Source: an uncultured Candidatus Nemicrothrix sp.
GTDB lineage: Bacteria > Actinomycetota > Acidimicrobiia > Acidimicrobiales > Acidimicrobilacustridaceae
NCBI GenBank assembly: GCA_903867185.1
Contig: CAIPQK010000191.1
Coordinates: 1 to 38,166 of the forward strand
Length of the DNA: 38,166 bases
Direction of reading: 5' to 3'
Part shown: one piece after another, positions 6,619-30,002 of the stretch
Position numbering within the stretch: position 1 is the first letter of the stretch
Layout: each line of letters starts with the position of its first letter
Program-made: the position numbers and the translations under genes
Notes under the pieces: model-generated
Database searches by the model: none
What the model was told of the DNA's origin: nothing
What the model saw: only the letters and a program-made list of their open reading frames with translations

Positions 6619-7611
6619 TCACGACAGCAAACGATTAAACGGATCGGTCGGACGCTCTTCGGGAACTAAAGACCGCCATTCGCTCCGCTCTTGATCTCGA
6701 ATTCGTGTTCCATCTCGGTAGAAACCGTATGACCATCGCTGCGATTCCATTCCCCTCGAAAAGTAATCGATTCGATCGAGATACCAACGCCAAAGGTCTG
6801 CGACTAGAGGGTTCTGCTCCATCTTCAACTTCGATCGTTCGAAACCAATACCCAGACCCTTTGTGAAGTGATACATCACGAGAGGGTCGCCATTCACCCG
6901 ATAGTCACCTCGGTCGTCAATCGAGAGATGCCGCTGGTGCATATTCCACGATGCAACATTGAATCCGGCCTGCCGGAAGATCAAGCAGTTCGGAAAAAAC
7001 GGCGGGATGAGGTCCCCCCACCGCTGATCAACGAATAATCCTCTTGCAATGTCATCGACACAATGATTCTCCAAACGACTCGCCCACCACTCAGCAAATC
7101 GAATGCCTTCCTCGCAAGGACTCACACCGAACATTCCGAAGTTGTAGATCCCATGCGCAAGAGTGGATATTTCCTCCTCAACTGCGTGACTATCGAGAGC
7201 CGACGCATCGAGTAGGTGAGGGGTCAGCAAGACTGAAGCCTCACTCAAAGCATTCTCAACATCGGAAAGCGGACCGAAAAGAGCGGTATCTGGATCAAGG
7301 TAAAGAACCGGATGTTCACGCTCGAGTAATCGCAGGAGCGCTCGTCCCTTGACTGCAGTGCACGCCGCAACCACGTCGTACCCGAAAATCCACGAGTCGT
7401 GTGCTTCGCCGAGCAGGTCCTCGGAGGTAAGAACCTCGTCAAACAAACCGCTGCGCAATCGTTGCCCATGCGGCGAATCCTCGGCTGGAAACGTATCGAC
7501 AAGCACAAGCGTGAATTTTGCGTCTGGAGCGTAACGCTTTACCGACTCAGCAAGTACGGAAGCTTGCGCCAAATAGGCGAGGTTTGCGGAGGTGAAAATC
7601 TCAAGCGCCAT
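6619..7611 (-). CDS. Nucleotide-diphospho-sugar transferase-like glycosyltransferase (GT8-like, GT-A fold)
   Basis: A 330-residue protein without a signal peptide or membrane segment. It begins with a Rossmann-like strand and helix (LEIFTSANLAYLAQASVLAESV) and carries a D-x-D type motif in LYLDPDTALFGPL at about residues 100-112. Further on are NFGMFGVSPCEEGIRFAEWW and VDQRWGDLIPPFFPN, a pattern I associate with GT-A enzymes found beside repeat-containing glycosyltransferases in surface polysaccharide loci. The donor and acceptor sugars cannot be read from the sequence. Its start overlaps the end of the larger glycosyltransferase by 11 nt, and its TGA overlaps a possible ATG of the M24 gene. 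Base composition looks closer to 50 percent GC in sampled lines than in the flanking housekeeping genes. The two glycosyltransferases probably act in one pathway. Confidence 0.8.
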   Translation of the reverse strand: MALEIFTSANLAYLAQASVLAESVKRYAPDAKFTLVLVDTFPAEDSPHGQRLRSGLFDEVLTSEDLLGEAHDSWIFGYDVVAACTAVKGRALLRLLEREHPVLYLDPDTALFGPLSDVENALSEASVLLTPHLLDASALDSHAVEEEISTLAHGIYNFGMFGVSPCEEGIRFAEWWASRLENHCVDDIARGLFVDQRWGDLIPPFFPNCLIFRQAGFNVASWNMHQRHLSIDDRGDYRVNGDPLVMYHFTKGLGIGFERSKLKMEQNPLVADLWRWYLDRIDYFSRGMESQRWSYGFYRDGTRIRDQERSEWRSLVPEERPTDPFNRLLS

Positions 7612-9736
7612 TCGACACCACCGAAAGGAGCGCAGGGGTTAATCCCGTGAATTCGAACCTACCGACATCGCATCTGCGTTTCCGACGAATCTCGTCTCGG
7701 ATCGCTTCATAGTCAAACTCCATGATGCCATCTTCAACTTGTACTAAGAGACCTTCTCCTTCTGCCGCAACTACGACGTTGCCGGACCCATGGGATGCCA
7801 CTACACAACAGCCGGCCGCCATTGCCTCGAACGTTACGAAATTGAAGGTTTCTTTCCCCTCGACAAGGTTCACTACAGCATCGATTCGGTTCTCTAAAAG
7901 TAGCTCCGTTGTGACGGAGCGGCCGCCCATGCTTGGTCGAAGTTCGATAAATGTCACAGAGGGAACTGACCGAGATTCGACGCCGAAGTGAAAGAAATCA
8001 AAATCATCGGCATGCACTCCTACATCGGAAACAAAAGTTGTGAATTGATTCCAACCTTTGCTTGCTGCGGGATGACCGACAAATGCAACGCGAACTTTGT
8101 CGTTAACGCTGCAGGGCTCCCTCAAAGCTCCATCCCACCGAATTGCTCCGTGAGGAATCACCAATGGTCGACTAGGAAGCGGCGTAGACCCATTCATCGA
8201 CTGATCAGCCGCGAATTCAGATGGCGCTGCGAAGGTCCAGGCAACACCCTCGAAAAGCGATCGAACACGATTGACGTGTTGTTCACGAACGGGACCATAC
8301 GCACACAGCTGGCAGGACTGACTCTCGGGAGCCGGGTCTCCACACCAATTCACTCCATTTCTGGTCAGCCGATAATTCTGACAGTGGGCAGAAAAGTCAT
8401 GAACCCACCAACATGCAACCGATGGTTGAAGCACCTCCATCGACTGCCGAATTGCTTCTGGCGCATGTCCAAGCACCGAGTGCACGACGATAACCACTTC
8501 TTTCTCAGAAAACCGCTGAGAAAATGCAGCAGAAAATTCGACCAAGGGAAACGCTGAATCGAAAAGTTCTCCATTGATGCGGCATCGGACGAGGAACTCT
8601 CTTGGAGATGAAGAACTCAGTGCGAGAAAGAGCCTGTTCGGAAAAACCGAAATATAGACGTCTCCGAGTTCCCGAAACTTCACTTCCTCCTGAGCCGAGA
8701 CGATCTGAACGCCGCCCACATGCTCGACGTAGTCATCGTGGGCGAACGATATGACCACCCGTGTACCCGCAATCAGTTGACGATCCAGAATCTCCGTGAC
8801 GACTTCGGCGCCGGTACGAATCTCCGCACCACTTTCGGCCGCTCCGTCGTAGGAATGAAGCGACAACGTCCTCGCGAGAAGTACCCGTTGGATGTTGTCC
8901 TTAAGGGAGCGTTCTTCATAGATTGCCGCATTAGGAAAGCGCCCTTCACGGTGGCCTGAATTCACAAAATGCGTGAACGCAGGAATGGCGGCATTTGCTA
9001 CGTCGGCATAATTTCGAAGATAGAACTCCGCATCGAACCATTCGAATTCGGCCTGGGAATCGAGCGTGCCGGCACGAAGGTCAATTTCAGCGACGTCGAA
9101 TTCGATCCCAACATGCTCCAAATACACGCCGAGTGATTCCCTCACATCAGCAGCCCATGGCGAATCAGGCGTTTTGTACCCAGGCTGCGCAAATTCAAGC
9201 GGTTCTACGATCGGTCGTCCTTCGTTCAACCCGTGGCGAACGTGGTGGGTGAGCGGATCATTGCCGCTCTCGGCAACTTCCGGATTGTCGTGCAGATAGC
9301 CGCGGGTCGAAAAGGACGGATGGGGGTCGAGTCCGTCGAGCCACCCCGTCGCAAGATAATGATCAAGCGCGCTCAGGACATCTGGGAATCGTTCATCTGG
9401 TAACTGAGATCGGTAATACGCCAGATCAAAAAGTTCCACTCGCCGAACCAGTTTGTTCGCCCGAGTTCGGCTCTCGTAGTCAGCCACTGACACAGATTGG
9501 CGTTTCTCTTCTCTTCCCCATCGTTCGAAGTGGATGAGCGGATTGATCCCCTCTCCCCGAACGTCCGGGTTGTCAGCAAGGTAGCCATTCGTTGAAAACT
9601 CTGGATGGGGATCAAGTCCAATCCGCCAACCAACCTCGTCGTAGTGCCCGAAGAGATTCTTTGGAAACTTTCCGTCCAATGAACGAATCTGGGAGCGGTA
9701 ATAACTGCGGTCGAAGTACTTAGATTCGCTCACCAT
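7601..9736 (-). CDS. Repeat-containing GT4-type glycosyltransferase
   Basis: A 711-residue protein in two parts. Residues about 7-80, 102-175 and 233-268 are three copies of a module. Copies 1 and 2 run from FDxxYYRSQ through GLDPHPxFSTxGYLxDNPxV to a PLxHxxRxGxxEGR-like end; copy 3 is shorter (WFDAEFYLRNYADV to GHREGRFP). From about 325 the catalytic part starts with a GGVQIVSAQEE donor-side loop. It continues with VHDFSAHCQNY and three more cysteines (C465, C475, C478), as in O-antigen-type enzymes. It ends with VAFVGHPAASKGW and a GT4 nucleotide-sugar site (NLVEGKETFNFVTFEAMAAG). The ATG at 9736 is preceded by GGAGG with a 6-nt spacer. It is cytoplasmic by sequence and probably adds sugars to a cell-surface polymer. 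The repeats may bind the growing glycan or a partner (inference). It is the first gene of a four-gene minus-strand run. Confidence 0.82.
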   Translation of the reverse strand: MVSESKYFDRSYYRSQIRSLDGKFPKNLFGHYDEVGWRIGLDPHPEFSTNGYLADNPDVRGEGINPLIHFERWGREEKRQSVSVADYESRTRANKLVRRVELFDLAYYRSQLPDERFPDVLSALDHYLATGWLDGLDPHPSFSTRGYLHDNPEVAESGNDPLTHHVRHGLNEGRPIVEPLEFAQPGYKTPDSPWAADVRESLGVYLEHVGIEFDVAEIDLRAGTLDSQAEFEWFDAEFYLRNYADVANAAIPAFTHFVNSGHREGRFPNAAIYEERSLKDNIQRVLLARTLSLHSYDGAAESGAEIRTGAEVVTEILDRQLIAGTRVVISFAHDDYVEHVGGVQIVSAQEEVKFRELGDVYISVFPNRLFLALSSSSPREFLVRCRINGELFDSAFPLVEFSAAFSQRFSEKEVVIVVHSVLGHAPEAIRQSMEVLQPSVACWWVHDFSAHCQNYRLTRNGVNWCGDPAPESQSCQLCAYGPVREQHVNRVRSLFEGVAWTFAAPSEFAADQSMNGSTPLPSRPLVIPHGAIRWDGALREPCSVNDKVRVAFVGHPAASKGWNQFTTFVSDVGVHADDFDFFHFGVESRSVPSVTFIELRPSMGGRSVTTELLLENRIDAVVNLVEGKETFNFVTFEAMAAGCCVVASHGSGNVVVAAEGEGLLVQVEDGIMEFDYEAIRDEIRRKRRCDVGRFEFTGLTPALLSVVSNGA

Positions 9737-9827: not shown

Positions 9828-11552
9828 TCAATGCAAAGAAACTGCTACCGCACTTTCGGCTGCTGCTTGCTTTGCATGAAAACTCGAACGTGTGAGCGGA
9901 CTTGATTCCACATGATCAATGCCGAGTTCACGGCCGATCTCTGCATACGAAGTGAACTGCTCAGGTGTCACCCAACGGTCAACAGGCAGGTGCGTCGAAG
10001 TTGGCCGCAAGTACTGGCCAATCGTGACGATCGAAACTCCGATTCCCGCAAGATCAGCCAAGACCGATGCGATCTCGTCGTCGGTCTCGCCCATTCCTAC
10101 AACTAGACCTGACTTGGTAAGAAGACCGGCTCGCTTTGCCCGGGACAAGACTGCCAGCGAGCGTGCGTAGCCGGCCGAAGGTCGAACTGCCCGCTGAAGG
10201 CGCGGCACGGTTTCTACGTTGTGGTTGAGAACGTCGGGACGACTTTCGAAGATGAGATCAAGGGAAGCGGCCTGCCCACGACAGTCAGAAATGAGAACCT
10301 CGACCTGCACACCCGCATTGCGATCGCGAATGGCGCGAACTGTGTCCGCCATCGCGCCCGCACCTTCGTCGGGCAGGTCGTCGCGGGCGACGGTCGTGAC
10401 AACGGCAAAGTCAAGCTCCATGCGAGCAACGGCTTCAGCGACCCTTGCAGGTTCTTGGGGATCGAGTGCCTCGGGTAGCCGCGTGTCAACCAAACAGAAT
10501 CCACATTTTCGTGTGCAGCGTTCGCCGTTGATCATGAACGTCGCGGTGCCGTCAGACCAACACTCGGAAAGGTTCGGACAGCCCGCTTCTTCGCAGACGG
10601 TGACCAGTTGAAGATCTCGCAATGTTTTTTTGAGTTCCAGCGGACGAGCGCCAATGTTTAACTTGGCGCGCATCCATTCAGGCTTGCGTTCCATCACATC
10701 GATTCCATCGACCACGCCTGCTTGCGCCAAGCGGCCCTGCAAACGCAATGACGGACCTGCTCGATGATCGGCCCCCGTCTTCACAGGAAGACCAGCACCC
10801 ATGCCCCGGCTAAAGGGAGACAGATCGTCATCACCATCGGTCGCACGACGAATGATGTCGGCCCGATCGACATCTCGGTCGACTGCCCACATCGCTGCTG
10901 CCCGATGAACGACAGCGTCGATAACTTCGGACATCGTGACGTCGATGCCTTCCTGCGCAAGGGAGGTCACGGATTTATCGGCAATGCCGCAGGGAACGAT
11001 GTGCGTGAACATCGACATATCGGGATCGACGTTGATCGCGAAGCCATGCATCGAACGACCGCGGGTCAGTCGCACGCCGATTGCGGCGATCTTGCGAGGA
11101 TTCTCCGACTCTGGAGCGACCCACACTCCTGGGTACTGCTCAAGTCGACCAACGTCAGTTAGTCCGAGATCGTTCAAGGCGCCGATCACCAGTTCTTCAA
11201 CCGATCGCACGTAGGCGACCGTGTCAGCCATTCCCCCGCCGCGCTTACCGGGAACGGACAACACCGGATAGCCGACGAGCTGGCCAGGGCCGTGATAGGT
11301 GACGTCGCCACCGCGATCAGTGCGCAGACACTCAGCACCAACAGATGCCGGATCGACAAGCACATTGGCAGAATCGGCATTTGCCCCGAGCGTGTAGACG
11401 TGCGGATGTTCGAGCAACAACAACCAGTCGTCGCTGCCGTGCTCGAAAAACGCGTGCTGCAGATCAGAGGCTTCGGCGTACGGAACCGTCCCAAGCCAGC
11501 GGACGCGCAGGGGTGAAGCGCCGACGGTGGGGGTCTCCCCGGCCGTCGCCAT
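9828..11552 (-). CDS. lipB-lipA: Bifunctional lipoate synthesis protein: octanoyltransferase (LipB) fused to lipoyl synthase (LipA)
   Basis: One open frame of 574 residues carries both enzymes of de novo protein lipoylation. Residues 1-235 are LipB: RGGDVTYHGPGQLVGYPV at 80-97, the catalytic Lys154 in RKIAAIGVR, and the catalytic Cys188 in THIVPCGIADKS. A linker of about 50 residues (236-285) follows. Residues 286-574 are LipA, a radical SAM enzyme: C320, C325 and C331 (CEEAGCPNLSEC) hold the auxiliary cluster, and C346, C350 and C353 (CTRKCGFC) the SAM cluster. RSSFHA at 555-560 supplies the conserved serine region. LipB moves octanoyl from ACP to the E2 lipoyl domain and LipA inserts two sulfurs. 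The ATG lies 2 nt after the stop of the E2 gene, with no intervening promoter. All catalytic residues of both halves are present, so both should be active. The usual actinobacterial arrangement is two adjacent genes. Confidence 0.95.
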   Translation of the reverse strand: MATAGETPTVGASPLRVRWLGTVPYAEASDLQHAFFEHGSDDWLLLLEHPHVYTLGANADSANVLVDPASVGAECLRTDRGGDVTYHGPGQLVGYPVLSVPGKRGGGMADTVAYVRSVEELVIGALNDLGLTDVGRLEQYPGVWVAPESENPRKIAAIGVRLTRGRSMHGFAINVDPDMSMFTHIVPCGIADKSVTSLAQEGIDVTMSEVIDAVVHRAAAMWAVDRDVDRADIIRRATDGDDDLSPFSRGMGAGLPVKTGADHRAGPSLRLQGRLAQAGVVDGIDVMERKPEWMRAKLNIGARPLELKKTLRDLQLVTVCEEAGCPNLSECWSDGTATFMINGERCTRKCGFCLVDTRLPEALDPQEPARVAEAVARMELDFAVVTTVARDDLPDEGAGAMADTVRAIRDRNAGVQVEVLISDCRGQAASLDLIFESRPDVLNHNVETVPRLQRAVRPSAGYARSLAVLSRAKRAGLLTKSGLVVGMGETDDEIASVLADLAGIGVSIVTIGQYLRPTSTHLPVDRWVTPEQFTSYAEIGRELGIDHVESSPLTRSSFHAKQAAAESAVAVSLH

Positions 11553-11554
11553 GA

Positions 11555-12919
11555 TTAGAGCTCCGCTTCCCAGTCGCGGGTCTCGAGGATTTCCTTGACG
11601 TCACGGAGAAATGCTGCAGCGTAGGCACCGTCGAAAGCACGGTGATCCCAGCTCATCGCCAACATGCCGACCGAATGAATCGCTATTGATTCGCTCCCGT
11701 CGATGCCGGCGACCACGACGGGCTTGCGATGCACACCATCGGTCGAGATGATCGCCACCTGCGGCTGATTAATGATCGGAAGCACGAGGTGACTGCCAAA
11801 CGATCCTGAGTTGGAAAGTGTGAACGTTCCGCCCGAGATGTCGTCGGCCGACAGTTGCTTCGAACGAGCGCGTGCGGCGAGATCGTTAATGTCGCGAGCA
11901 ATGGCACGAAGTCGCTTGTCGTCTGCTTCGTGAATGACTGGAGCCAAGAGACCCGTGAAATCGAGGTCGACGGCAATGGCCAGATTCACGTAGTTGTGGA
12001 CGATGAGTTCACCGTCACCAACCGAAGCGTTCATATGCGGGTAGTTACGCAATGCATCGACGACAGCTCGTGAGATGAACGGCAGATAGTTAAGACCGAA
12101 ACCCTCTTCGGCTCGGAACGATTCTCGATGCGCTCGGCGAACTCGTTCGATGTTCTCGTAATCGACTTCAACGATTGTGTAGGCGTGCGGCGAGACCTGT
12201 TTCGACATCACCATGTGTTCGCCTGTGCGACGGCGGATGTTGTTGAGTGGTTCGACAGTGTCGCCCGTACCCGAACGCGGCGCGGGTGTTGCCCGGCGCT
12301 GACCACTGGAAGCCGCAGCGGGAGCAGATGATGCGGGAGTTGTAGACGCGACACCTGAACGAATTGCGAGTTCAACGTCGGAACGTGTGATTCGTCCGCT
12401 GGGTCCGGTGCCGGTGATTCGAGAGGTATCCAAGCCGTAATCGCTGATGAGACGACGAACGATCGGCGAAAGCACTTGACCGGCGGTCGAGGCCGCAGGC
12501 GCAGCGACCGGTGCGGCAGCCGCAACAGGCGCAGGCGGAGGTGTCGGAGCAGCAACAGGCGCTGGAGCCGCAACCGGAGCAGGCGCCGGTTGCGGTGCCG
12601 TCTCGACAACAGGTGCAACAACGGGAGCCGGTTCGGGCTCGGGCGCAGGAGTTGCAGTGGCGGGAGCCGGAGCAGGCACGCCAGCACCGTCACCCACAAC
12701 AGCGATCACAGTGCCAACGTCGACGGTGTCGCCTTCGGCCACACGAATTTCGGTGAGGACTCCACCAACTGGCGAAGGAACCTCGGAATCAACTTTGTCC
12801 GTGGAGACCTCGAACAAGACCTCGTCTTCAGCAACAGAGTCACCAACTGCTTTGAACCACTTCGTGATGGTTCCTTCAGTCACTGACTCGCCAAGTTGCG
12901 GAAGTTGAATCTCTGCCAT
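11555..12919 (-). CDS. sucB: Dihydrolipoamide acyltransferase, E2 of a 2-oxoacid dehydrogenase complex (SucB, actinobacterial type)
   Basis: A 454-residue core subunit that passes acyl groups from its lipoyl arm to CoA. Order of domains: one lipoyl domain at 1-78, with the lysine to be lipoylated in EVSTDKVDSEVPSP; a long Ala/Pro/Glu linker (about 80-150); a peripheral subunit-binding domain (LSPIVRRLISDYGLDTSRI, GPSGRITRSDVELAI); a second linker; and the catalytic domain ending in SWDHRAFDGAYAAAFL with the HRxxDG active site. Actinobacterial SucB/DlaT proteins can have two or three lipoyl domains, so a single one is on the short side. GGAGG precedes the ATG by 5 nt. It sits between lpd (16 nt upstream) and the LipB-LipA gene, and its lipoyl domain is the expected substrate of that fusion. 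E1 is not in the window, so succinyl versus acetyl specificity is open. Confidence 0.93.
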   Translation of the reverse strand: MAEIQLPQLGESVTEGTITKWFKAVGDSVAEDEVLFEVSTDKVDSEVPSPVGGVLTEIRVAEGDTVDVGTVIAVVGDGAGVPAPAPATATPAPEPEPAPVVAPVVETAPQPAPAPVAAPAPVAAPTPPPAPVAAAAPVAAPAASTAGQVLSPIVRRLISDYGLDTSRITGTGPSGRITRSDVELAIRSGVASTTPASSAPAAASSGQRRATPAPRSGTGDTVEPLNNIRRRTGEHMVMSKQVSPHAYTIVEVDYENIERVRRAHRESFRAEEGFGLNYLPFISRAVVDALRNYPHMNASVGDGELIVHNYVNLAIAVDLDFTGLLAPVIHEADDKRLRAIARDINDLAARARSKQLSADDISGGTFTLSNSGSFGSHLVLPIINQPQVAIISTDGVHRKPVVVAGIDGSESIAIHSVGMLAMSWDHRAFDGAYAAAFLRDVKEILETRDWEAEL

Positions 12920-12934
12920 GGAATCCTCCGGGAT

Positions 12935-14338
12935 TCAGCCGTGAAGCGAGCGCCCGGTAAGAGCGAGGACGCTCTCACCAAACAATTCGCTCAACGTTGG
13001 GTGAGGTTGAATGAAAGCGGCGACGTCGTCGACGTCGGCTTCCCAGTTCAATGCGAGGTAGGCCTGACCAAGTTGTTCAGTGACCCAAGGGCCAACCATG
13101 TGAACGCCGAGCAACCGACCGCCCGTTCCGTCGGAACGCTTCTCGGCGATGACCTTCACCATTCCCTCGGTTTCGCCGAGGATGAGCGCACGGCCGTTAC
13201 CTGAATAGCGGTGCTTGCTCACGATCACATCGAAGCCTGCTTCTTTGGCGGACTTTTCGGTGTGTCCGACGAAACTGACTTCGGGGTGGCAATAGATGCA
13301 CCACGGGACCTTTGAGTAATCAAGAGGAGTCGGGTCTTCATCCAGCATGTCGCGGATGGCCAACATGCCCTCTGCAAAACCGATGTGGGCAAGAGCTGGC
13401 GTGGCAATGAGATCGCCAACCGCCCAAACCCCGGGCTCGCCCGTACGACAATGTTCGTCGACAACCACGTGACCACGTTCGCTCACCGCAACTGCGGTGC
13501 CATCGAGTCCGAGATTTTCTGAAAGAGGACGGCGGCCAACCGAAACGACAACCATGTCGACATCGACCGATTCGCCCTCGCCGAACTTCACAGTTGTTCC
13601 GCCCGCGAACTTGGGGTCGTGACCTTGCACGGAAACGCCGGTGCGCACCGTGATGTTGCGGTCCTTGAATGATTTCAGCACCACTCGAGTGACATCTTCG
13701 TCACAGCCAGGAAGTATCTGCGGAAGCGCCTCAAGAATGGTCACTGCGGTACCGAGGTCGGACATCATCGAGGCGAATTCGCACCCAATTGCCCCGCCAC
13801 CAATCACAACGGCCGTTGCTGGCAGTTTCTGAAGCGAAAGTAATTCGTCAGAGGTAAGAACGGTGACGCCATCGACGTCGAAACCGGGGATGGTGCGTGG
13901 CACCGAACCCGAAGCCAAGATGACATTCTTGCCATGAAGTTCGACATCGCCAGACGAGCCACCAGAGACCTTGACGACGTGACCGGCGTGCAACGTGCCG
14001 ATTCCGTCGTAGACGGTGACCTTGCGCTTCTTCAGAAGACCGGTGAGTCCGCCGACAAGCCCGTCAATGACGCCTTGCTTGCGCACTTGGGTCACCGAGA
14101 AATCGAGGACTGGCTCCGACGTGGTCAGGCCAAAAGCGGCAGCGCTTTCGATAGCTCGGCGAATCGAAGCGGTCTCGAGCAATTCTTTGGCGGGGATGCA
14201 GCCAACGTTGAGGCAGGTGCCACCGATGCGGTTCTTCTCGATCAACGCAATAGTGAGCCCTGCCGATGCTCCATACAGTGCGGCGGCATAACCACCGGGA
14301 CCGCCGCCAATGATGACGACGTCGAAGTTCTCGGCCAT
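12935..14338 (-). CDS. lpdA: Dihydrolipoyl dehydrogenase (E3)
   Basis: A 467-residue FAD and NAD-dependent disulfide oxidoreductase that reoxidises the dihydrolipoyl group of E2. Visible are the FAD-binding GGGPGGYAAAL near the N-terminus, the redox-active disulfide in GGTCLNVGCIPAKELL, the NAD-binding loop VIGGGAIGCEFASM, the second FAD contact GEPGVWAVGDLIATPALAH, and the C-terminal catalytic HPTLSELFGE. The ATG at 14338 is preferred: GAGG lies 8 nt upstream and homologues start MAENFDVV. A GTG 9 nt upstream is possible but badly placed. It heads the lpd-E2-lipBA operon, so the cluster supplies E3, E2 and the cofactor-making enzyme together. No E1 gene is present. High confidence. Confidence 0.97.
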   Translation of the reverse strand: MAENFDVVIIGGGPGGYAAALYGASAGLTIALIEKNRIGGTCLNVGCIPAKELLETASIRRAIESAAAFGLTTSEPVLDFSVTQVRKQGVIDGLVGGLTGLLKKRKVTVYDGIGTLHAGHVVKVSGGSSGDVELHGKNVILASGSVPRTIPGFDVDGVTVLTSDELLSLQKLPATAVVIGGGAIGCEFASMMSDLGTAVTILEALPQILPGCDEDVTRVVLKSFKDRNITVRTGVSVQGHDPKFAGGTTVKFGEGESVDVDMVVVSVGRRPLSENLGLDGTAVAVSERGHVVVDEHCRTGEPGVWAVGDLIATPALAHIGFAEGMLAIRDMLDEDPTPLDYSKVPWCIYCHPEVSFVGHTEKSAKEAGFDVIVSKHRYSGNGRALILGETEGMVKVIAEKRSDGTGGRLLGVHMVGPWVTEQLGQAYLALNWEADVDDVAAFIQPHPTLSELFGESVLALTGRSLHG

Positions 14339-14632
14339 TGGGACCACCTCTATCGCGACTACGGGGAGCCCGAGCCTACCGTTACGGGCGCAATGGCTGA
14401 ACCCAAATGCTCAGCTCATTTTCAGCGGGTGGCAAGGAATAACTGTGCAGCTGCCGCGGCGAGTATCGCCAAGCCGCATGCGAGTGCCAAGAGGATCAGT
14501 TTCCGGGTGCTCATGAGGTTCTGAGCGTATCGGCCACAGACTCTCGGCCCGACCGCCCGATCCCGCAGCATGGGGCATACCCTCGGACTAGACCGTTCTC
14601 TACCTCCCCATCCCTCGTCATCAGGAGTCCTC
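14339..14632. other. Longest intergenic stretch, between lpd and the epimerase gene
   Basis: This 294-nt region separates divergent genes. It holds a possible 30-codon membrane ORF on the minus strand (14422-14514) with a TACGCT box 9 nt upstream. On the plus strand TACCCT at 14579-14584 is a candidate -10, and AGGAG at 14623-14627 is the ribosome binding site of the epimerase gene. No RNA gene or strong terminator was recognised in it. Confidence 0.4.
14422..14514 (-). CDS. Possible 30-residue single-span membrane peptide
   Basis: The translation is a short basic start (MSTRKL), one hydrophobic helix (ILLALACGLAILAAAAAQLFLA) and a final TR, then TGA. There is no Shine-Dalgarno sequence, but TACGCT (14529 down to 14524) stands 9 nt before the ATG, close to the leaderless spacing seen elsewhere here. 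It points toward lpd, 83 nt downstream. It could be a real small membrane peptide or the remnant N-terminus of a longer protein; the frame shows nothing recognisable after the stop. No function can be given. Confidence 0.3.
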   Translation of the reverse strand: MSTRKLILLALACGLAILAAAAAQLFLATR

Positions 14633-15544
14633 GTGAAGATCGCCATCACCGGAGCCTCAGGCCTCATCGGCCGGGCACTGACAACGTCCCTTGTCGCAGA
14701 TGGACACCAGGTCATTCCTGTTGTCCGCCGATCAAATCCTGCGACACCCGATGCAATCGAATGGAATCCAGCCGCCGGAACAATCGAGGCATCGAAATTT
14801 GAAGGTGTTGACGGAGTGGTTCACCTCGCCGGCGCAGGTATCGGCGATCATCGCTGGAGCGAGTCCTACAAGCGCGAGGTTCTCGAAAGTCGCACTAAGG
14901 GGACCGAACTTCTTGCGCGCACTCTTGCGTCGCTCACCACTCCCCCCTCAGTGATGGTTAGCGGATCAGCGATCGGCTTCTACGGCGACACCGGCGACAG
15001 TGCAGTCGATGAATCAGCATCTGCGGGCCATGACTTTTTGGCGGAAGTTTGTGTTGCATGGGAAGCCGCCGCCGCACCCGCCGCCGAGGCCGGCATCCGC
15101 GTGCCATTCCTGCGCACCGGCATCGTGCTCACCACCGACGGTGGAGCGCTCGCCAAGATGCTGCCTCTCTTCCGCTTTGGACTCGGCGGGCGCATGGGCT
15201 CGGGCAAACAATGGTGGAGCTGGATTTCGATGGCCGATGAAATCGGAGCAATCCGATGGTTGCTTGATCACGACATCAGTGGTCCCGTGAATGCCACCGC
15301 ACCGGCTCCAGTCACCAACAGCCAGTTCACCAAAGCTCTCGGCGAGGCCATGCATCGTCCGACATTTGCTCCAGTGCCGTCGTTCGGCCCCAAGCTTCTA
15401 CTGGGCGCCGAACTCGCCGATGCGCTCCTGTTCACCAGCACTCGCGTGCTTCCTGGGGTCCTCGAGGCCAGTGGCTATTCATTCGCCCACCGCACGATCG
15501 AGGCTGCATTGCCAGATGTACTCACATCAAAGGCAGCAGCCTGA
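14633..15544 (+). CDS. TIGR01777 / SDR39U1-type NAD(P)-binding epimerase-like protein
   Basis: A 303-residue extended short-chain dehydrogenase-like protein. It begins VKIAITGASGLIGRALTTSL, a Rossmann GxxGxxG nucleotide site, then PVVRRS at the end of beta-2, DGVVHLAGAGIGDHRWSESY, and GSAIGFYGDTGD in the strand that carries the catalytic residues in related enzymes. The C-terminus has the family's small DUF1731-like domain (about 250-300, VPSFGPKLLLGAELADALL). The start is the GTG at 14633, preceded by AGGAG with a 5-nt spacer; an upstream in-frame ATG at 14570 would add 21 unrelated residues. The physiological substrate of this family (YfcH in E. coli) is not firmly known. It probably forms an operon with the SRPBCC gene 12 nt downstream and rsgA. 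Confidence 0.9.
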   Translation: MKIAITGASGLIGRALTTSLVADGHQVIPVVRRSNPATPDAIEWNPAAGTIEASKFEGVDGVVHLAGAGIGDHRWSESYKREVLESRTKGTELLARTLASLTTPPSVMVSGSAIGFYGDTGDSAVDESASAGHDFLAEVCVAWEAAAAPAAEAGIRVPFLRTGIVLTTDGGALAKMLPLFRFGLGGRMGSGKQWWSWISMADEIGAIRWLLDHDISGPVNATAPAPVTNSQFTKALGEAMHRPTFAPVPSFGPKLLLGAELADALLFTSTRVLPGVLEASGYSFAHRTIEAALPDVLTSKAAA

Positions 15545-28826: not shown

Positions 28827-30002
28827 TCAGCGCTGAGGGTCACCGACGAGGAAGACGCCAAGTAATTCCGCCGCTGTTGCGACGCCTTCTCCCCGTTCAA
28901 CGGCGCGATCGATCGCTTCGACTGCACCTGGGGTATCGAGATCGTCATCGAGCCGCGTGCGGACCTCGTCGAGGGCTGCCTCACTATCGACGGCACCGGG
29001 AGCAATCGTTGCGGCAAGCCAAAGCTCAAGCCGCGCTGCTGCGATCGGCATGATTTCGTCTTCCCATTCCCACGAATCGCGGTAGTGATGAGAAACGATG
29101 GCGAGGCGGATTGCCCGGACATCCCAGGTCTTTCGCAATTCGCTGATGAAGACGAGATTCCCAAGTGACTTCGACATCTTCTCGCCGTCCATGCGGACCA
29201 TGGCTTGATGCATCCAGTGGCGAACAAAGGGCTGACCGGTTGCCGCCTCACTTTGAGCTGCTTCGCATTCATGATGCGGGAAGATCAGATCGGAACCACC
29301 ACCATGCAGATCGATCGTGGTGTCGAGTTCACGCAAGGCGAGAGCAGAACACTCGATGTGCCAACCAGGTCGGCCAGGGCCCCAGAGCGATTCCCAACTT
29401 GGCTCGTCAGGCGCCGAAGGCTGCCACAGAACAAAATCGAGTGGATCACGCTTATTTGGATCGTCAGGATTTCCACCATGCTGCCGAGCAAGGTCGATCA
29501 TTTGCTCACGGGTGTAATGCGAAACCTGGCCGAATCGATCGAACGAGCTCACATCGAAATAGACAGAGCCGCCGCTCTCGTATGCATGACCCTGATCAAG
29601 CACCATGCCGATGAATCCGCGAATGTCAGCGATTGCGCTCGTGGCACGCGGCTCGCTCCAACATTCGACCACGTTTAACGCTTCCATGTCGGCATCGAAG
29701 CGAGCCGTTTCGGCAGCAGCGAGGTCTAGGTAGTGAACACCGAGTTCCCGGGCTTTACGCAACAAGTCGTCGTCGACATCGGTGACGTTTCGGACACAAC
29801 GTGTTTCGTGACCCAGGTCTCGCAATCGCCTCTGGAGAACGTCGTAGGTGACATAGGTGGCCGCATGACCGAGGTGCGTCGCATCGTACGGAGTAATGCC
29901 GCAGGTGTACATGAGCACCAATGGTCCGGGCTCAAATGCAACAACTTCGCGACGAGCGGTGTCATAGAGGCGCATCGGGCCGGTCGGAGTTGCCATTGTC
30001 AT
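28827..30002 (-). CDS. mshC: L-cysteine:GlcN-Ins ligase, mycothiol synthesis (MshC-like)
   Basis: A 391-residue class I synthetase-like enzyme. MshC uses ATP to join cysteine to glucosaminyl-inositol. It differs from cysteinyl-tRNA synthetase in the signature LMYTCGITPYDATHLGHAA (C34 is a zinc ligand, HLGH the HIGH motif). KRDPLDFVLWQP, GPGRPGWHIECSALAL and GGGSDLIFPHHECE (remaining zinc ligands) and GEKMSKSLGNLVFISEL (KMSKS) follow. The length, close to 400 and without the long tRNA anticodon-binding end, also favours MshC. Cysteinyl-tRNA synthetase or an MshC-like carrier enzyme remains the alternative. Its ATG overlaps the npdG stop as ATGA, so the two are coupled. If the call holds, the organism makes mycothiol; the other msh genes are outside the window. 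Confidence 0.8.
   Translation of the reverse strand: MTMATPTGPMRLYDTARREVVAFEPGPLVLMYTCGITPYDATHLGHAATYVTYDVLQRRLRDLGHETRCVRNVTDVDDDLLRKARELGVHYLDLAAAETARFDADMEALNVVECWSEPRATSAIADIRGFIGMVLDQGHAYESGGSVYFDVSSFDRFGQVSHYTREQMIDLARQHGGNPDDPNKRDPLDFVLWQPSAPDEPSWESLWGPGRPGWHIECSALALRELDTTIDLHGGGSDLIFPHHECEAAQSEAATGQPFVRHWMHQAMVRMDGEKMSKSLGNLVFISELRKTWDVRAIRLAIVSHHYRDSWEWEDEIMPIAAARLELWLAATIAPGAVDSEAALDEVRTRLDDDLDTPGAVEAIDRAVERGEGVATAAELLGVFLVGDPQR

Follow-up and report, generated by a model that had tools for sequence, protein, structure and literature searches.

Two enzymes of lipoate assembly are the closest described counterparts of the protein reported here. The octanoyltransferase LipB (TIGR00214 and PRK14345; M. 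tuberculosis structure 1w66) has a Cys/Lys dyad as its catalytic residues, as given in the accessible part of PMC9307952, and the lipoyl synthase LipA (TIGR00510; M. tuberculosis structure 5exk) carries two cysteine triads and an RSSY motif, of which, according to the accessible part of PMC13232139, the arginine and the third-position serine are required and the remaining residues dispensable. In M. tuberculosis the two are separate PDB chains, unlike the single chain described below. In other Actinomycetota lipB and lipA are tandem genes, often close together, which share their order and strand with the fusion gene but are read in two frames, or in a single frame that one or two stops interrupt. 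The nearest named fusion is NCBIfam NF053790 (LplA_LipA_fuse, bifunctional lipoate--protein ligase/lipoyl synthase), in which LipA is likewise preceded by an attaching enzyme from the superfamily to which LipB belongs. The N-terminal part there is an ATP-dependent ligase, whereas here it is LipB, and our protein stays below the cut-off of that model (346.3 bits vs 800), matching only profile positions 330-605 of 606, the LipA part.

A search of the open-access literature gave no description of a LipB-LipA fusion, and none is mentioned in the accessible parts of PMC10332631 (a survey on lipoate assembly from 2023), PMC5962788 (a 2018 study of Acidimicrobiia markers), PMC3917532, PMC9307952 or PMC12246082. 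An initial reading of the sequence without database searches (the sequence-only reading) knew of no description of this architecture, which agrees with the open-literature search, but the novelty is smaller than it supposed because NCBIfam already names the analogous LplA-LipA fusion. An attaching enzyme fused to LipA is already known; here the partner is LipB, and the fusion is class-wide and old.

One gene for LipB and LipA

On the minus strand of the window (the whole 38,166-nt stretch of DNA analysed) a single frame of 574 codons plus stop runs from 11552 to 9828, and the plus-strand reading of the same positions contains stops throughout (Table 1). The sequence-only reading had placed here a 574-residue frame joining LipB to LipA and starting 2 nt after the E2 gene. 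Direct reading of the frame and domain models scoring over their cut-offs bear out the joined frame, the junction reads TAA, TC, ATG from the E2 stop to the fusion start, and the coordinates and length hold as given; the strand, which had been left unnamed, is minus. A candidate GGAG-like stretch lies 5′ of the fusion ATG, and a scan for promoter- or terminator-like sites gave no excess over shuffled sequence.

Table 1. Features of the fusion locus in window coordinates, with fractions referring to distinct full-length fusions
Feature	Position	Strand	Details
lipB-lipA fusion gene	9828..11552	minus	574 aa, ATG at 11552
LipB (octanoyltransferase) domain	10887..11519	minus	residues ~12-222; PF21948 25-216, PRK14345 12-222
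Lys154, LipB Cys/Lys dyad	11091..11093	minus	73/73
Cys188, LipB Cys/Lys dyad	10989..10991	minus	73/73
Linker, residues ~223-268	10749..10886	minus	D-L-S-x-F-S-R type motif near 243-249
LipA (lipoyl synthase) domain	9855..10748	minus	residues ~269-566; TIGR00510, LIAS_N, Radical_SAM
Auxiliary-cluster cysteines C320, C325, C331	10560..10595	minus	CX4CX5C; 73/73
Radical-SAM-cluster cysteines C346, C350, C353	10494..10517	minus	CX3CX2C; 73/73
R555-S556-S557	9882..9890	minus	RSSY-type motif, fourth residue F here
E2 gene, dihydrolipoyl acyltransferase	11555..12919	minus	one lipoyl domain; PF00198, PF00364, PF02817
lpd, dihydrolipoyl dehydrogenase (E3)	12935..14347	minus	TIGR01350 over cut-off

Pfam recognizes LplA-B_cat (25-216), LIAS_N (288-325) and Radical_SAM (344-500) in the fusion. 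Curated NCBIfam cut-offs are exceeded for LipB by TIGR00214 (137 bits, cut-off 83.55) and PRK14345 (188.5, cut-off 155) and for LipA by TIGR00510 (342.8 bits vs 310.25), and the further LipB models PRK14341, PRK14343 and PRK14342 score under their own cut-offs. The N-terminal part is like LipB in its fold, its Cys/Lys dyad, its RGG loop and these scores, but its C-terminus continues into LipA; the C-terminal part is like LipA in its fold, both cysteine triads, the RSS motif and its score, but its N-terminus is joined to LipB, and the window protein reads RSSF, not RSSY. Removing duplicates and cut frames from 98 fused loci left 73 distinct full-length fusions, including the single one from outside the class (genome G489, below). 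Lys154, Cys188 and the two triads, which the sequence-only reading had singled out, are present and invariant in all 73, as is the LipB loop R80-G81-G82 among the aligned fusions. In the RSSY-type motif R555 and S556 occur in 73 of 73 and S557 in 72 (the other holds an X), and the fourth position is Y in 58, F in nine and H in six. Against seven relatives of equal length, a reference in which many dS values are near saturation, dN/dS is 0.033-0.048 for LipB and 0.018-0.045 for LipA.

A search of the source genome's contigs found no second LipA. A second protein of the LplA/LipB superfamily, of 220 residues, is encoded on contig C24 (L093, 1408-2067, plus strand); it scores 54.7 bits with PF21948, over the cut-off, with no NCBIfam model above its own, and could be a salvage ligase or amidotransferase.

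Distribution in Acidimicrobiia and origin

The fused architecture is the rule across the class and not peculiar to the window. In a class sample of 197 genomes of at least 90% completeness, 189 match the fusion and 187 of these hold both domains in one open frame, 145 through a single match spanning both and a further 42 on direct reading, as predicted from the phase of their matches. Four genomes (G047, G180, G189 and G164) had internal stops in their search matches; these were rejected as breaks, since in each both domains sit in one stop-free frame and the reported stop falls outside it. The two matching genomes lacking a single frame, G149 and G204, involve broken contigs or chimeras. One contig of G149 begins within the LipB C-terminus of a fusion, and a second contig of this genome encodes LipB on its own; in G204 the LipA frame of contig C113 (L144) is continuous with upstream residues that read by eye like the start of PurD, and a LipB fragment ends a different contig, so that C113 is probably a chimeric contig, or else a different fusion. 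G105 carries the fusion and, on the 5-kb contig C83 (L145), also lipB and lipA as separate genes next to an E2-like frame, and the extra genes of G105 and G149 are either second copies or operons or contamination. The remaining eight of the 197 genomes have no fusion match and show no separate lipA either, because the LIAS_N search was empty as well. An ordinary two-gene pair was the sole arrangement in no genome of this sample.

Named genome contigs tell the same story: of 447 candidates the 80 best were taken, a few of them cut by contig ends, and both domains share one frame in 80 of 80 cases. Ferrithrix thermotolerans DSM 19514 (class Acidimicrobiia at NCBI) is among them, and the class of the sample is identified as Acidimicrobiia through this organism. 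When the 60 nearest relatives are taken with the source genome, 55 of 61 genomes match. One frame in all of these best loci, together with dN/dS below 1 in the domains and the linker, places the fusion beyond chance, and the LipB-LipA fusion is real. We presume that UniProt's label of multifunctional fusion protein is attached to some such proteins.

The sequence-only reading had proposed mapping the taxonomy of proteins with both domains; in the genomes covered here the fusion is class-wide in Acidimicrobiia and occurs in at least one further genome of the phylum. In a phylum sample that includes the class, 311 of 398 genomes match, and among the matches listed G489 alone outside the class has a spanning match free of stops, LipB and LipA sharing one 712-codon frame; a fusion that gave two weak partial matches may have escaped this listing. 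In the congener G474 lipB and lipA are two genes, each in a frame of its own. Compared with G474, G489 is missing ∼134 nt in two gaps (107 and 27 nt), and the lipB stop lies within the lost part; G489 (L094/L148; G474 is L149) is apparently an independent fusion by deletion in one genome only, as judged from this alignment. Loci outside the class whose spanning match contains in-frame stops were rejected as chance same-frame neighbours: the 13 examined, taken from at least 17 such rows of the phylum search, have two separate frames each. In eight of the 13 the LipA frame starts straight after one lipB stop in the same frame, and because a single in-frame stop parts the genes there, fusion is an easy step.

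Domain trees were built from 33 hand-picked fused class rows, G489, and rows of separate genes, which numbered 31 for LipA and 30 for LipB. The fused rows of the class fall on one side of a branch with SH-aLRT 85 in the LipA tree and 95 in the LipB tree, these being quick trees with no fixed root and with long branches flagged by the program; long-branch separate rows stand beside the fused group in each (L117 and L127 for LipA, L116 and L138 for LipB). G489 groups with G474 in both trees. The simplest fit to these trees would be an ancient fusion event in the class and a second, recent event elsewhere in the phylum, the ancient fusion having arisen once, early in the class, out of neighbouring lipB-lipA genes. 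A plasmid collection returned 221 records at less than 60% identity, six of them covering at least 80% of the query, in two pieces among the matches listed, and a PHROGs search with the fusion gave no match.

Gene neighbourhood and clients

The fusion stands last in an operon-like minus-strand series of lpd, E2 and fusion. The E2 scores 415.5 bits with TIGR02927, slightly below the cut-off of 423.45. Among the 78 of 80 named loci with at least 600 nt upstream, an E2 frame ends no more than 75 nt from the aligned LipB start in 66, and because the other 12 (L035-L038, L043, L045, L046, L057, L058, L060, L067 and L081) have no E2 within 75 nt the link to E2 is not obligatory; in L057 and L081 an E2 lies slightly further upstream, and L067 has a weak E2-like match. 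An lpd gene lies upstream on the same strand in all 51 loci with at least 3.5 kb available. In five related fusions (L035, L037, L043, L045 and L046), some of them from marine Acidimicrobiia, a same-strand lpd precedes the fusion and no E2 match falls between the two.

The source genome has one GcvH and two PF00198 proteins, the second of which (on C81) is a Kgd-type 2-oxoglutarate decarboxylase with no lipoyl domain within the 827 residues covered. From this inventory the genome probably has no lipoyl-bearing E2 other than that of the window. The fusion is thus likely to serve the window E2 and GcvH, with E2 as the likely main substrate. The sequence-only reading had called the neighbouring E2 the substrate gene of the fusion, which fits its place directly upstream and its probable uniqueness, but E2 is not the sole substrate because GcvH must be served as well.

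Several other features of the window were recorded. On the opposite strand, adjoining lpd, lies a TIGR01777 (YfcH-type) oxidoreductase (14570-15544, plus), a relative of which, we assume, stands between dlaT and lipB in Mycobacterium. Directly behind the fusion are two glycosyltransferase-like frames (6619-9736, minus) in a stretch with few family matches and a G+C of 0.53-0.54 vs ∼0.58. An MshC/CysS-like protein of 391 aa follows thrS (28827-30002, minus); it scores 421.8 bits with MshC, under the cut-off of 485.1, and 353.2 with CysS, over the cut-off of 340, though it is short.

Linker, structure models and mode of action

The sequence-only reading put the linker at about 50 residues, close to what we find: ∼46 (223-268) if the LipA domain is taken to include an N-terminal segment resembling M. 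tuberculosis LipA, and ∼64 otherwise. A motif of the D-L-S-x-F-S-R type occurs in 51 of the 73 fusions, and F[ST]R was found in none of 28 separate LipB tails or LipA heads. Residues 223-286 have a dN/dS of 0.040-0.219 against the same seven relatives, and on these ratios the linker is under purifying selection. Its length, from W219 to E288, spans 36 to 92 residues across fusions. No internal start codon is conserved among the 73, the best being ATG at residue 294, inside LipA (31/73), and GTG at residue 233 (28/73), and LipA is for that reason probably made solely within the fused chain.

The AlphaFold2 model of residues 1-574, built on an alignment of 61 rows (the query and 60 of 64 usable relatives), has a mean pLDDT of 85.7 and a pTM of 0.89. 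Its LipA part aligns with M. tuberculosis LipA 5exk over 300 residues (Z 39.7) and its LipB part with M. tuberculosis LipB 1w66 over 203 residues (Z 29.0), with Foldseek TM scores by target of 0.93 and 0.84, respectively. The Ferrithrix protein, modelled on 38 rows all common to the first set, reaches a pTM of 0.90 despite 26 linker residues at pLDDT below 50. These lie at 217-242, and in the window protein such values occur at 238-242 and 260-262; the most conserved linker motif is itself modelled poorly (pLDDT 51-57). In the models it is plausible that the two domains pack against each other, as an unknown mutual placement would usually lower pTM.

The best reading of these data is that the fusion is the bifunctional lipoate-assembly enzyme (octanoyltransferase/lipoyl synthase) of Acidimicrobiia, which we hold to be highly probable, its activities being those we infer from the domains. 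The N-terminal LipB domain would take octanoate from octanoyl-ACP onto Cys188 and pass it on to the lysine in the lipoyl domain of E2 (and GcvH), and the C-terminal LipA domain would then add two sulfurs to the same octanoyl group, steps modelled on known LipB and LipA biochemistry as laid out in the accessible parts of PMC9307952 and PMC13232139. The tether would hold the two sites near each other at a fixed 1:1 ratio, and an octanoylated lipoyl domain would reach LipA soon after leaving LipB. The single chain is established; the straight passage of octanoylated E2 to sulfur insertion, proposed by the sequence-only reading, is a supposition. A stricter version, in which a rigid two-site enzyme with a geometry set by the conserved linker octanoylates and then sulfurates a single lipoyl domain in one docking event on the same molecule and this channelling has been fixed class-wide, is offered tentatively and strikes us as rather unlikely.

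The strongest alternative, which we rate a little short of an even chance, is that fusion fixes only co-expression and stoichiometry, with independent domains, a freely diffusing lipoyl domain and fixation by drift. The single in-frame stop in eight of the 13 two-gene relatives and the variable linker length speak for it, but the retention of the fusion in all but two of the matching class genomes, a linker motif kept in 51 of the 73 fusions and absent from all 28 separate pairs and the high pTM in two members point the other way. It is improbable that LipB and LipA are later separated by cleavage of the chain at the linker: the linker stretches predicted to be disordered in both models speak for it, but the linker motif is conserved over much of the class. 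Less probable still is that one domain is non-catalytic and kept as a binding or regulatory module. Nothing positive favours this beyond a faster-evolving LipB domain with long branches in its tree, and against it stand the invariant dyad, RGG loop and six LipA cysteines, the low dN/dS of both domains and a source genome with no other LipB or LipA of comparable quality. An assembly or sequencing artefact, including the stop lost through error that the sequence-only reading had named as the case against itself, has a negligible chance even with a source that is a draft genome of 232 contigs, and was rejected on the independent assemblies that share the fused frame, Ferrithrix thermotolerans, all 80 best named loci and 187 of 189 matching class genomes among them, and on the purifying selection on the linker.

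If both activities of the bifunctional enzyme prove true, Acidimicrobiia would possess a naturally occurring system that performs de novo lipoylation with one chain, a system that allows the hand-over of an octanoylated protein from LipB to LipA to be tested directly and that may serve as a compact part for producing lipoylated proteins. It is a candidate, too, as a molecular marker of the class.
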